A DNA stretch of 64,000 nucleotides from Amphirosellinia nigrospora (Eukaryota > Ascomycota > Sordariomycetes > Xylariales > Xylariaceae). The stretch covers positions 6,165,017 through 6,229,016 of the forward strand of contig SCHM01000004.1 in assembly GCA_004123355.1 (NCBI GenBank), written 5' to 3'. Below the pieces are notes generated by a model. It did no database searches. It saw only the letters and a list, made by a program, of their open reading frames with translations, and was not told where the DNA came from. A program made the position numbers and the translations under genes. Below are positions 4,256-14,430 of this stretch, in pieces; position 1 is the stretch's first letter; each line of letters begins with the position of its first letter.

Positions 4256-4468
4256 CTACTCTTTGGCGATAGAGCGGTAGAGCTCTTTGTACGGTGGATC
4301 AGGGAGCGCTCGCTTTGGCTGAGGAGCGATGACGGCTCTGTCGGCGGGGCTGTATGGGTTTTGAGGAAGCAGCCGTTTATCCACAGTGCTTTCAGGTGAA
4401 CTGATTGGTGCAGCGGCGGTGATTCCAACGAAGGCCACAAGGGCAATCGGAAAGAGCTCGAAGCGCAT
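4256..4468 (-). CDS. Small secreted peptide precursor with KR sites and repeated motif (RiPP-like candidate)
   Basis: The product has 70 residues. Residues 1-20 form a signal peptide (MRFELFPIALVAFVGITAAA). Dibasic KR sites, the cleavage signal of Kex2-type proteases, lie at residues 31-32 and 52-53. The segments after each KR resemble one another: LLPQNPYSPADRAVI and ALPDPPYKELYRSI, sharing [LA]LPx[NP]PYxxxxR[AS][VI]. This layout (signal peptide, KR-separated imperfect repeats, Tyr in each repeat) is what precursors of Kex2-processed fungal RiPPs look like, though with only two repeats. The ATG has a strong context (CAAAATGC), a CT-rich leader and a TATA box upstream (4593-4600). It lies divergent to the UstYa-like gene at 5561, the enzyme family that acts on such precursors. 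It could instead be an unrelated secreted protein with a propeptide. The gene reading is fairly secure; the RiPP role is inference. Confidence 0.6.
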   Translation of the reverse strand: MRFELFPIALVAFVGITAAAPISSPESTVDKRLLPQNPYSPADRAVIAPQPKRALPDPPYKELYRSIAKE

Positions 4469-4592
4469 TTTGCTGTCGCGAGAGGTATCAAGATGAGACC
4501 GGTTGTAAGATGAACAGAAGGCGAAGTTCTAATGGGGCTAATGTGTGGGGATCGAGTGCTTGAAATCCATCTAGAAAGGGAATATTCGAGGG

Positions 4593-4600
4593 TATTTATA
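4593..4600 (-). promoter_or_regulatory. TATA box of the small secreted peptide gene
   Basis: The minus strand reads ACTATAAATACCC, a good TATA box, about 125 bases before the ATG at 4468. The sequence between them is CT-rich, as in well-expressed fungal leaders. Confidence 0.5.
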
Positions 4601-5560
4601 GTTTGAGTATATCAACAATCCAGCTTATAGTTCCCCGTCTATGTCTAAGCGACCTAACGCTGGCCAACATTGGCAAGCTTGCATCTGCCTACCTAATAAT
4701 GGGGAATGGCTTGACCTAGCTGATTGCCAATTATGGAGAGTAGTAACATAACGTCAGGGATCGATCCAGGACTCAAATCTACCGCGTGCCTTGAAACATC
4801 GCTATCGCCTTTCCTTCAGCTAATGAAATTATCACCCCGACCGAATGATTCGAATCGAAAAATGAAGCATTAATGTTGTTCCAAATGTAGTTCATTCTGT
4901 TCAAGATCGTCCGTCAATCGCAGGTTATGCTGCGAGTCCGGAGCTGGCTAATTAGCAAGCTTTTGTGGCCAAAATAAGCGCATTGTAATCGCTGAATGTG
5001 AACTCGCCAATCGGAATACCTGCATCCCGGGGGGAGCTGAGCGACCAAGGCAATTGCAACCACGAACGGCTGAACTGGCTTGCACGAAGGCTGCATTCAG
5101 CTTACTACCTTAGATGCCTAGGATAAAATTGCAGCTTCTTTGATCATGGCGAGCTCATGTAGGTTTCGGAACGACTCGGACAGCGACCGAACTCCACGTT
5201 TGTCGTACCATATTTAGGCGTCCCGTGCCCCTTTTAATCACCTGAAAAGAATGAGGCCACACCAATGATAACACGAAGTAACCGATACTGCTTAAACGAG
5301 CCGCCGAGTACTATTCATCTCGCCAATTATAGATAACTTTAGGACATACAGCTTTGATCATTGAAAGTTTTAATCGGAGATTTGGAATTATAATGATGAC
5401 GTGACTTGAGATACGGCCCCCGAAGGGTTTTAGAAATCGTTACACATGTTCGAGCGTTCAATGACTTATATCAAATTCTTCTTTCATCGCTAAGGCTTTA
5501 ACGCTCGCATCTCTTGCTTTGAAGGTGAATAGGGGATGACTCTAACATATCGTCGCTGAT
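4601..5560. other. Divergent intergenic region between peptide precursor and UstYa-like gene
   Basis: The region is about 960 bases long, of normal to slightly low GC, and should hold the promoters of both flanking genes. A minus-strand open frame at 4914-5096 has no family-like features and I treat it as chance. I recognise no specific operator. Confidence 0.4.
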
Positions 5561-6485
5561 ATGGACTGCCAATTCCAGTGCGATTCAACCGATCAAGAGT
5601 CGAAAGGGCTTCTCACTGATCTTCCGGTGCAAAACCGCGCACGCCAAAACATAAGTGGGATGAATCGGACCAATATAATTGTCCTGACCATATTTAACAT
5701 CATACTTTTCGGCCTCTCCCTTATATTTCTCGCAACAACTTGGTACTACCACAGCTATTTCATTAAAAATGTCGAACTCCGACGTACTTCTATATATAGT
5801 GAGCTTTCCATGACGCTCTTCCCTTCCTAAGTTACACCGGGCCTAATAAACCTTAGGTCCCGTCTACGACTTAATCGATCTTGGTCTTCATGAGACCCAG
5901 GTGAACGGTACACTGTATCCGCCGGAGCAGCCATCAATAGCGCGGCAAATGCCTAACCCCGCAGCGGACAGCGTGTGGGAAGATTACGAGCGAGTTCGTC
6001 CGCTACGACTGACCAAGTCTCAATTGATACGGATGGGAAGGACCCGTCCCAGGTGTCAAAATACAAAGACGAGGACTGGGGATTTGGTGATGACGCATAC
6101 GTGGGCGACCTAGATGTCTTTCACCAACTACACTGCTTGAATACTCTGCGCCAATACGCCTACGCCGATTATTATAACATAACCAAGCTCGATGCCAGCG
6201 ACAGCGACTCGTTGATGGCCGCCCACGTCAATCACTGCGTTGATATTCTTTTACAAGAAATCCGATGCTCTGGTAATGTTGGTTACATCACTTCTGGCTG
6301 GATTGAAAATATGCGGTATCCGCAACCTGATATGTAAGTGCTCGACTTTTCTTGATAGAGTTCGTAGCTTATGTGCTGGTAGGTCTATCAACCGCAAATG
6401 CATTGCCTTCGATCGTGTAGTTGCGTGGCGCGACGCTAACGGAATTGATATGACGAAGTATGAGAAACTCATGGTAGCGCCGTAA
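5561..6485 (+). CDS. UstYa-family (DUF3328) protein, three exons, one apparent frameshift
   Basis: UstYa-family proteins are membrane-anchored oxidases that cyclise fungal ribosomal peptides (ustiloxin, asperipin) and some other metabolites. Exons are 5561-5798, 5857-6333 and 6383-6485, with introns GTGAGC...TTAG and GTAAGT...GTAG. Splicing recreates the family's SPVYDLIDL motif after the first junction. A single transmembrane helix lies at residues 39-61. The two diagnostic HxxHC motifs are HQLHC (6122-6136) and HVNHC (6224-6238). Within exon 2 the frame changes at a GGG at 6035-6037; one missing base would restore about 272 residues. Because family signatures lie on both sides of the break, the gene is probably intact in the organism. 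It neighbours the KR-repeat peptide gene at 4256-4468, which is the natural candidate partner; that link is inference. Confidence 0.85.
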
Positions 6486-8473: not shown

Positions 8474-9119
8474 ATGTTGCCCAAAATCCTATGTTTACAC
8501 GGTAGCGGCACGAGTGCCGACATCTTCCGCATCCAGGCTATCAGACTCGGCCGCCTTCTTCAGCCTCACTTCCAGCTGGTTTACGTTGATGGCTTCTTCG
8601 ACACAGGTCCGGGGCCCGGCGTTCTCCCATTCTTTGAGGGGATGGAACCCTATAAACGATGGCTCACAGACAAGGATGGCGAGACGGAGGGAAGCCGTGG
8701 GAGGATCTAGAACGGCTCGTCGAGGTGTTCAACAGCAAAGGGCCCTTCGTCGGCGTCATCGGATTTTCCCAAGGCGCCAAGGCAGCGACGCACCTCGTCC
8801 GCTGGCTCGAGCAGCGCGGGCAACAGCTTGACTTCGCGGCTTTGTTTGGGGCACCGTGCCTTCGCGACAATTGATTGGCACGGAAGAGTGGGCTGAGTTG
8901 GTCAAGCCCATAATCATCACAAGAAGTATACATGTCATCGGCGACGATGACCCATGGCGCTCCGAGAACGAGGCTTTGATGGACCACTACGACAAATCCA
9001 CTCGATGGCTCGTTCGCTTTAAGGGCGGTCATCACATGCCCGTCGATCCAGAGATCAACGAGAAACTGGCGAAACTCATCATTTCATGCCATGAAGAGAG
9101 CAACGATGACTATCCTTGA
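8474..9119 (+). CDS. FSH1-like serine hydrolase (alpha/beta hydrolase), two apparent frameshifts
   Basis: This is a small alpha/beta hydrolase of the FSH1/FSH3 (DUF341-type) family, esterase-like with unknown substrate; relatives often sit in fungal metabolite clusters. The N-terminus ILCLHGSGTSADIFR and the following FDTGPGPGVLPFF are typical. The catalytic triad is visible: Ser in GFSQG (8761-8775), Asp in VIGDDDPW, His in FKGGHHMP. The three parts lie in three frames: 8474 to about 8690, then to about 8870, then to the stop at 9119. One missing base at GGG 8689-8691 and another near 8866-8874 would join them into about 215 residues, close to family size. Every catalytic element is present, so the breaks are more likely sequence indels than decay. 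Start ATG at 8474 has a good context (CACAATG). Confidence 0.8.
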
Positions 9120-11508: not shown

Positions 11509-13739
11509 TTAATGTTCACAAAAGTTGTATCTATAGGAGAGCCATGATTCATCCGCCACATCATTAAAGGCTGTGCGTTCTTCCATGAGCTTCAGTCGAT
11601 GAGCTCTCGCATCTTCCTCGCTCATTACCGGCGATTCGCCAAGATAGTCCCGCACCATGTCCAGAAGTTCCACAGGCAAGTTCATTTTTGCGTGGCTTTG
11701 CTGCGTATTTTCAATCAACCCCTTTTCTATTAGCAATTGAACAAGATCTGCGGGAAGGTTGGCAAGCGATTCTTGCTGGGACTCGGCAGATCGTCCGAAT
11801 ACTGATTCTAACCACCAGTCTTGTTGCTGAGGAGGGACATTGGCAGTGGAAATAATACGTATGTGTGGATCGACAAGCCACAAGGCGATGAAACGACGGT
11901 GGCCAGGCTTCGTGGGATCAACCAATTGAAAGGGTGAGACGCGGTGCTGGCTAGACATCGCAGGCAATGTGTTAATGATTAACCGGAGTCGGATTTGCGA
12001 AAATAACTCACAAGACATTAGGGAATGCCAAAAGACGACTCTCCGGAGTTTCAACGTTCCCGTAGTTCTGCAGACAAGGACCACCAGACCCTCCCAACCT
12101 TATTCCATGTACCTTTTCGAGCCAATGATATTCGTCCTGTCCAACTCGAAATTGCACTGTCTCACTTATGTAAGGATCGGTCAGCATTCGGAAAGAAAGA
12201 TCACTTGTAGTGATATTTTCACTGTCCACATAATAAAGGGCAGTAGCGCAGATATGCTCGTTCATTTGCCCTTCAACCTGGAGTTCTCGGTTAGCAAGAA
12301 CATGATTAAAAAGTGAGATGTGTACACCTACGTGCCAAGATCCGGCGGGATAACTTGGTTTCTCTGGAGTTAGTTCAATCGAAACCATCTTCACAATGAC
12401 TTGAAGCCCAGTGTCTTTGAATTTTTGGAAAAGAGGACAAGGAGGAGAGTAGTTCACTTCCTCGAAAGGATCGGGTTCCGGTACTACTGGCTTGCGTACT
12501 TCTCGCCATTCTTCTTGTAGCCGTTCTTCCTCCGACTCGTCGTCGTATGAATCTTGCGAACCTACGTCTTCAGAGCCCGAGCCTTCCTCATCTTCAGCTA
12601 TGCCTGTCCCGTGTTCATCAGCCACATCGGATTTGGTTTTTCTCAATTCCTTCCACGACGAAGGACTCCAATTCGCCTCATTGTCGTCACTGTTTGGTAA
12701 TTTGGTAATTAGTGGCGCATGTTGTATATTCGATGTGTAATGGACTTACCCAGCATCCCAAGGAAGCGAAAAGCGAGGATGACGTCGTCCAGCGCACCCT
12801 GTCTCGTCATTGTCCATCGCCGGGTAAAGACACTGATCCCACAGAGGTAATGCTTTCTCTACAAGCTTTTCGATAGCGCTGTAGATTTCAGGATATTTTG
12901 TTGGATGCAAGTTATTTATGTAGCTCGTAAACTTCACGCTACCATCATTATGCGAAGCTACATTGGAAGGGAGCCATTGGTAGTCATCTGACCAGAACTT
13001 AGCCGGCACGTTAGCGCCCTCAGGTGGGAGTTGGTCACCAATGACTGTACCCTTACCTGCCCATTTTGCGATGGCATCTGTGACCCCAACGACCTCATCT
13101 CGGAACACTTTGGTGGATTTGATGACAAGTGGATACATCGAAGGATGCACAAGGTTCAGGACCTTTTCATCAGTCCCCGGATGCCAATCTGGGAGTCTGC
13201 TTGATCTGTTTTCAGCCGCTCAAAAGCTTGGCGTAGTTCATCCTTCAATGTGGGTGGGATGAGGCCATCCGACTTCGCAACGGCGGCCGTAGCGTCCAGA
13301 GTTTGAACAATACCGGTCTTCGCAAAATGCTGCGCCTTGTCCCGGAGCTCCTGAAGGCACTTTTGACATGTTAGCGCAACAGGAGCCGCGTGTCCTCATA
13401 TCATACTTACATAGTCGAACATCTTCTCGGTCATAATTCCTGTGATAGATATCCGGCCGTTAAACTTCAGCTTGTTGGCGGCCAACGTCCAAAGCGCCTC
13501 GTCTGGGTATGCAAGGGCTTCTGCTCGCCATTTAAGAACAATGGTGTCGTCGAATACTTTCTTATGCCAGTCCGGCTTGTCTGTTAGTCTGTCCATTATG
13601 TCATCATGGCGACTTCTCTAACTAGTAGCAGCTTCGATTGCGAACGGTCACAGCGTTGATGATGGCCTGTCGGGTAGAATCTGCCATACTCCTGGGGATG
13701 ATGCCGCAACGGCAAGCCGAGGCCAGGGTAAGAATGCAT
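11509..13739 (-). CDS. DUF4246 family protein, five exons, two apparent frameshifts
   Basis: This is a large fungal protein of unknown function (DUF4246). Exons, on the minus strand: 13739-13411, 13359-12750, 12689-12332, 12277-12012, 11950-11509; introns of 51, 60, 54 and 61 bases have GT...AG ends, and each junction gives family-like text (WDAG/DDNEANWSPSSWKEL, WH/VEGQMNEHICATALYY, LLAFPNV/FQHRVSPF). The 54-base intron is in frame and would be read through if missed. The protein ends in the family's usual FNFCEH. Frame breaks lie near 13597-13600 and at GGG 13191-13193, each repairable by one missing base, giving about 668 residues. An HxE pair (HVE) followed by His (QHRV) and Arg (HRRF) resembles the iron site of 2-oxoglutarate oxygenases; that role is inference. 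The start ATG at 13739 (MHSYPGLGLPLRHHP) is likely but not certain. Confidence 0.8.
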
Positions 13740-14430
13740 CCTCTCGTTTGAATGTAGACAATTACAATTATAGTGTCTGGTGTCGACTAAAAGCACTTTT
13801 AGTTTGAAGCCTGAGATGCTGCTATTATCAAAACTGGCAGAGAGCCGTGGCGAGTAAGCCCTCCCTGTATGAGAACTCGGGACAGATGTAGGGTCAATGG
13901 ATCTATATTTATGTTTGTTGTATTAAGGTAGTAAGCTGAATGGGTTGACTGATCTCAGGCAGCAGTGACGTTGCCTAGAGCTGAGCCAAGCTGAGCCGCA
14001 TGCCGAGCGCTAGCGAAGGAGCACAATTCAAGTGCTACAACGGAGCGACGCGAGACAACCATCCAAATTTCACTTGGCATAACAACACAAAAATTGGTAT
14101 CATTTCGGAATTCAATTGCACATAACTTTGAATGTTTTTATTTTTCTTTCTTTCTTTGTTTTTGTTTTGGCAGTCTTTTGGCAGTATAGGTTGAATTCTC
14201 CAGCTCAACCTTGATCTAATCTTATCGATAGCTGAGATATCTTTAGCTAGAGCTAGCTATACCTTAGTTCCGAATCAAAATGTCGCGCCCCACCTATCCT
14301 TATATATAAGTTCCCTTTGTTTTTAAGAAACATGTCGATAATAGTATTTTTTATTTATAAACTATTATAATTAATATTTAATTATTTAAAAATACGATTT
14401 TTTATTAAAAATAACGATTTTTATATATTT
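13740..14430. other. Transition from gene-bearing DNA to the AT-rich block
   Basis: GC is normal to about 14080, then falls, and from about 14335 the sequence is almost all A and T. The last 50 bases (ATACGATTTTTTATT, ATAACGATTTTTATA) resemble the satellite array that resumes at 21137, so the LTR element at 14431 probably split that array. Confidence 0.5.

Follow-up and report, generated by a model that had tools for sequence, protein, structure and literature searches.

A candidate minimal two-core UstYa-type RiPP pair in Amphirosellinia nigrospora

UstYa enzymes close peptide macrocycles by unusual oxidative chemistry. Few of their products are known, five of them being named in a 2022 review (PMC10512285), and proteins of the family are also described to perform other chemistry (PMC12048977). 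The stretch of Amphirosellinia nigrospora DNA analysed here, 64,000 nucleotides in length and referred to as the window, lies on contig C6 (8.2 Mb), one of the 11 contigs that make up a 48.1-Mb genome, has gene content fitting a filamentous ascomycete (UstYa genes, many ketoacyl-synthase genes, introns) and poses the question whether a UstYa gene and a short open reading frame (ORF) divergent to it form a minimal RiPP pair, as the initial annotation had proposed. If this were true, two short Pro-Tyr cores and one enzyme would represent one of the simplest substrate–enzyme pairs for studying ring formation.

The ORF annotated with a 70-residue product was confirmed at positions 4256..4468 of the minus strand as an open frame without intron, and makes up the candidate RiPP precursor. 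Its residues 1–20 (4409..4468, minus) form a signal-peptide-like N-terminus with a hydropathy of 2.58 over 11 residues. Direct reading bears out the KR dipeptides described at residues 31–32 (4373..4378, minus), a predicted Kex2 site, and at residues 52–53 (4310..4315, minus), as well as the similar segment after each, both of which fit the pattern [LA]LPx[NP]PYxxxxR[AS][VI]. These segments begin with the core candidates LLPQNPY (core 1, residues 33–39, 4352..4372, minus) and ALPDPPY (core 2, residues 54–60, 4289..4309, minus), Tyr being residue 7 after KR and preceded by Pro in both copies, and are unequal in length with 19 and 17 residues. As had been noted, there are only two such repeats. 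A TATAAA element on the minus strand (4595..4600), 132 bases 5′ of the precursor ATG, is a weak feature, since TATAWA occurs 23 times within 14 kb when both strands are counted, and TATA boxes, found for three of the five precursors tested in this genome, are too common to carry weight. At E up to 10, a search of the genome with the precursor returned only the precursor itself and a search of the PDB no match; Pfam gave none at E up to 1, nor did Rfam for the window.

Several measures make it very likely that the 70-residue ORF is a real gene. Its coding score of 0.277 bits/codon is the highest of the six frames and was reached by none of 3000 overlapping intergenic frames of the window (stop codons skipped), although this measure is noisy, as the UstYa pieces attain just 0.02–0.14 bits/codon despite being coding beyond doubt. 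The 17-residue segments after KR are identical at five positions with a BLOSUM62 score of 23, and upon shuffling of the second segment this score is reached with p = 0.0013 and the identity with p = 0.016. Codons for K, R, the conserved Leu and the second conserved Pro differ between the two copies at the third base only; over all 18 aligned codons there is no third-position excess, the differences amounting to 11, 7 and 11 at positions 1, 2 and 3. A degenerate DNA pattern for KR-x-LPxxPY, in which the third residue is loosely constrained, matches twice in 48.1 Mb, both times in the precursor at the two core candidates, in frame and 63 bases apart; since the reversed pattern used as a control matches five times in the same genome, it is the pairing of the matches and not their number that is unusual. 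Dinucleotide-shuffled window sequence amounting to 2.1 Mb gave 288 signal-peptide-like starts; among these, five ORFs also contained two KR sites, and none of the five reached the repeat score of 26 obtained for the precursor (best prefix, up to 14 residues).

The neighbouring gene lies on the plus strand and consists of exon 1 with a TM-like helix (5561..5798), intron 1 of 58 nt with GT..AG borders (5799..5856), exon 2 carrying PVYDL, HQLHC and HVNHC (5857..6333), intron 2, again GT..AG (6334..6382), and exon 3 encoding the C-terminus (6383..6485). Its assignment to the UstYa family with two HxxHC motifs is upheld by the Pfam family PF11807, which the main piece of the protein matches at positions 108–200 with 96.3 bits (cut-off 25), and by HQLHC and HVNHC, both in one exon; the annotated SPVYDL motif is likewise present, being formed across intron 1. 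A smaller piece in another frame matches PF11807 at positions 59–109 with 21.9 bits, which is below the cut-off when taken alone. Against the PDB, the main piece found no match beyond two annexin entries at E 0.65. The divergent layout with a gap of about 1.1 kb also proved right, as 1092 bases (4469..5560) separate the two ATGs, and in view of the recurrent head-to-head layout described below this region may hold a shared promoter.

While domain and motifs stand, an intact frame does not: the continuous reading frame expected of a UstYa family gene is broken in this assembly within exon 2 at ~6038–6047, which the initial annotation had missed. The break is deduced from the two PF11807 pieces, which abut on the DNA. 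By eye, an intron was also weighed as a source of the shift and rejected, since the abutting profile pieces leave no space for one and splicing there would remove conserved sequence. Further downstream, at a distance of 2 kb from the UstYa gene, the gene for an FSH1 serine hydrolase (8474–8871) shows a similar frame break (~8685). As a control for such breaks, 120 ketoacyl-synthase matches were grouped within 1000 bases into 52 loci with 68 junctions, and a junction was counted as a frame break if the profile gap was at most 30, the discrepancy at most 30 bases and the frame changed. This rule classed 21 junctions, spread over 17 of the 52 loci and too short to hold an intron, as frame breaks and 44 as intron-like, and left three unclassified; the net discrepancy is exactly one base in 13 of the 21, whereas three with discrepancies of 20–28 bases are less sure. 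Given how often such breaks turn up among the ketoacyl-synthase loci (17 of 52), we read the break in the UstYa gene as an assembly error, which is a simpler cause than decay. Frame breaks in conserved domains are common across the assembly (window ~6040 and ~8685, ketoacyl-synthase loci), so that gene models derived from it need care.

To place the locus within its genome, all 65 UstYa matches, some of them below the cut-off alone, were grouped by hand into 39 loci, and 35 of these were scanned for repeat precursors (207,965 bases in 28 stretches; less than 1.5 kb on the 5′ side in four of the 35), the remaining four being without sequence. An earlier scan at threshold 22 had given 37 pair matches in 268,676 partly overlapping bases, including arginine-rich frames of L044, and an intermediate repeat scan at threshold 24 comprised three loci. 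The final scan required similar segments separated by KR, RR or KK with a score of at least 26 and was filtered against K/R-rich segments; since 26 is the score of the window ORF itself, the recovery of this ORF is not independent evidence, only its place and orientation are. Six matches were obtained, consisting of four clear Kex2-repeat precursors, the window ORF and one artefact, the antisense shadow of the C5:7.724M array. By exact-pattern count, the four precursors contain nine cores AQPIWVNELE (C4:1.072M; L045 2350–3103), four cores TNWYSDSA (C5:1.797M; L050 3390–3960), six cores (II)DAPDVAKPY (C5:7.724M; L052 2858–3410) and eight cores DND[DE][IV]WLW (C1:13.388M; L049 3754–4300). All of them, like the window ORF, are encoded 5′ of a UstYa gene on the opposite strand and thus head-to-head with it, the distances between the start codons, which were chosen by eye, being, in ascending order, 533–590, 618, 797 and 1074 bases for the four precursors and 1093 bases in the window. 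Five of the 35 scanned loci have such a head-to-head match, and at one further UstYa locus, C1:13.389M, the C1 array is located 3′ of the gene; no match was found within 4 kb in the other 29, some of which have a flank of ~1.5 kb or less.

The four precursors share with the window ORF a hydrophobic N-terminus and KR or KK between the cores, but differ from it in having 4–9 near-identical cores, unrelated core sequences and, in three of the four, Trp. Their signal peptide and repeats are found in different frames or split by a stop, probably owing to an intron. Among the loci fetched, the best match of the main window UstYa piece is C1:1.567M (40 % over 100 aa), followed by C4:1.074M beside the nine-core precursor (38 % over 100 aa), and the smaller piece has no good match among them (best E 0.02). 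Opposite the C1:1.567M UstYa gene, inspection by eye of the divergent side only revealed a seemingly secreted protein whose gene appears to have one intron (C1:1.570M; L046 6577–6940), with 1653 bases between the starts. This protein is free of KR repeats, ends in GWSHPIWPYE, has PIW in common with the C4 core and may be a one-core precursor.

Recurrence of the layout within the genome makes it probable that we are dealing with a small peptide natural-product locus whose general kind is known. The more specific proposal of a minimal two-core UstYa-type RiPP pair is the reading we favour with moderate confidence. It gains from the four precursors of this genome standing head-to-head with UstYa genes, from the closeness of the window UstYa to the C4:1.074M gene, from the presence of a kexin-type P-domain in the genome and from published small clusters such as those of asperipin-2a and gigA, and it loses from the broken UstYa frame and from a short, diverged repeat, two copies with 5 of 17 residues identical set against 4–9 near-identical cores in the other four.

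The pathway that we envisage would build on what can be read directly from the DNA, namely the ORF, its KR sites and repeat, the UstYa motifs and the head-to-head layout. The precursor would enter the ER via its signal peptide and be cut by Kex2 after KR32 and KR53, releasing two peptides, one of 19 residues followed by KR at its C-terminus and one of 17 residues, each starting with its seven-residue core, LLPQNPY or ALPDPPY. A membrane-anchored UstYa protein, expressed from the far side of the 1.1-kb region, would then oxidatively link Tyr7 to a side chain near the N-terminus of the core, presumably that of residue 1 or 2, of which only Leu2 is conserved between the cores. Residues behind Tyr would act as a follower that is trimmed by proteases encoded elsewhere. 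A ring between Tyr7 and residue 1 or 2 is a natural guess by analogy to the heptapeptide ring of the epichloecyclins, which is closed on Tyr as described in PMC6514808 and whose Tyr corresponds to Tyr7 of the window cores.

Epichloecyclins offer the nearest parallels in other respects as well, as their precursor GigA is described as a secreted protein with kexin sites and a few imperfect repeats, encoded with one UstYa-like gene in a four-gene cluster (PMC7317419, PMC6514808, PMC8982410, PMC9233826). GigA of one Epichloe strain is reported to have two identical core repeats (PMC7317419), and the products are reported to carry Ile at the N-terminus and Tyr internally (PMC9233826). Unlike the window precursor, GigA has repeats of 27 aa, the likeness being one of architecture, and the gigA cluster encodes a kexin (kexB; PMC7317419), whereas the only kexin-type P-domain found in the genome studied here lies on a contig other than that of the window. 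Asperipin-2a (aprA/aprY) likewise involves a single UstYa homologue, its four-gene cluster being listed in PMC6514808 without a tyrosinase, but it derives from a six-residue bicyclic core and its cluster also holds transporter and reductase genes. Ustiloxin and phomopsin, the dikaritins in the strict sense, share with the window locus Tyr-containing cores separated by KR and UstYa proteins and have a signal peptide where the window precursor has a signal-peptide-like start, and differ, according to the sources consulted, in having at least two UstYa genes, a tyrosinase, a methyltransferase and in some cases a peptidase; the ustiloxin precursor comprises 16 repeats compared to the two found here.

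Whether the locus can be called a dikaritin locus depends on the definition. The five-gene definition given in PMC12048977 comprises a repeat precursor, a tyrosinase, a methyltransferase, multiple DUF3328 genes and a transporter or peptidase, and the window locus falls outside it with one UstYa gene. The absence of a tyrosinase and a methyltransferase from the window had already been remarked upon, and indeed neither of them, nor a peptidase, was detected among the window ORFs scanned by Pfam; the tyrosinase matches on the contig of the window lie at 4.38 and 2.23 Mb, the nearest ~1.8 Mb away. A transporter gene (MFS) ~5 kb left of the precursor shows no sign of belonging to the locus. The looser sense, a 2021 redefinition cited in PMC12048977 by which a DUF3328 protein with two HxxHC motifs acts on a ribosomal precursor, could fit, as the UstYa enzyme and a candidate precursor are both present. 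Published surveys of Kex2-repeat proteins (KEPs) ask for a signal peptide and for at least three repeats between Kex2 sites (PMC7329392, PMC6339444); with two repeats and a hydrophobic start judged by hydropathy alone, the window precursor would go unlisted in them because of its repeat number. Low-repeat precursors are nevertheless already suspected in print, since a lichen study describes UstYa clusters with Kex2-site signal-peptide genes lacking repeats and raises the idea of a single-core precursor (PMC12048977). We regard UstYa-linked Kex2 precursors as a known kind to which the window locus quite plausibly adds a new one; a literature search for six strings taken from cores or repeats in this genome, the window locus supplying two, gave no match.

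Other explanations have to be weighed against the two-core RiPP pair. The precursor might give rise to a linear secreted peptide, such as a signal, a hormone-like peptide or an effector, that is processed by Kex2 next to an unrelated UstYa gene, an account we hold to be rather unlikely. In its favour, 6120 of the 7878 KEPs surveyed in PMC7329392 are without DUF3328 among the 15 closest genes, the other 1758 being neighboured by DUF3328, most frequently as the adjacent gene, and two diverged cores within peptides as long as 19 and 17 aa would suit a linear peptide well. The head-to-head position common to the four clear UstYa-linked precursors speaks against an unrelated neighbour, as does the conserved Tyr, this residue being enriched in UstYa-linked repeats with 65.6 % compared to 38.2 % (PMC7329392). 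An uncut small secreted protein, in which the KR-linked similarity arose by chance, appears improbable to us by a wider margin of doubt still: only 5 of 17 residues are identical, segment lengths differ, and the combination of a hydrophobic start with a dibasic site is not rare near UstYa genes, as 19 other ORFs (45–300 aa) in the scanned loci have at least one dibasic site behind such a start, but chance accounts poorly for both genome-wide KR-x-LPxxPY matches falling in frame into this one ORF and for a repeat and architecture that exceed the shuffles.

The locus could also be the remnant of a RiPP locus near a centromere-like AT block, with repeats decayed to two and a UstYa gene that is truly frame-broken. 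The breaks in the UstYa gene and in the FSH1 gene 2 kb away, the AT block from ~14 kb onwards and the weak repeat would agree with decay. This is opposed by the ketoacyl-synthase control, in which 13 of 21 breaks amount to exactly one base and thereby point to assembly error, by the open frame and coding bias retained in the precursor and by nearby ORFs of 366 and 465 aa that are open as well, and we judge a remnant to be unlikely.

Returning to the minimal pair, the recurrence of its head-to-head layout elsewhere in the genome invites the tentative and rather speculative thought that the fungus generates diversity among its ribosomal cyclic peptides through a recurrent cassette in which one UstYa gene stands head-to-head with one precursor gene. 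In such cassettes, related enzymes would be paired with unrelated cores, the number of which would range from one (C1:1.570M) over two (window) up to nine. If the minimal pair is real, one- and two-core precursors are missed by surveys requiring at least three repeats, and should the cassette hold true, UstYa RiPPs would be undercounted because such members escape these surveys.

Two features of the surroundings deserve mention. Positions 14000–64000 of the window form a gene-poor block of ~50 kb with ~2–17 % GC that reaches the window end; it resembles a regional centromere in size and composition and is even more AT-rich than the centromeres of F. graminearum, for which 56–65 kb and 86–88 % AT are reported (PMC4511438). 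Adjoining this block on the minus strand is a DUF4246 gene (11509–13219), which has at least one intron or break, as its match is spread over more than one frame. Apart from the window, three contigs of the genome are small, C8, C9 and C10 with 1.41, 1.33 and 1.30 Mb, and as C9 alone carries 12 of the 39 grouped UstYa loci, this suggests that they are accessory chromosomes rich in UstYa genes.
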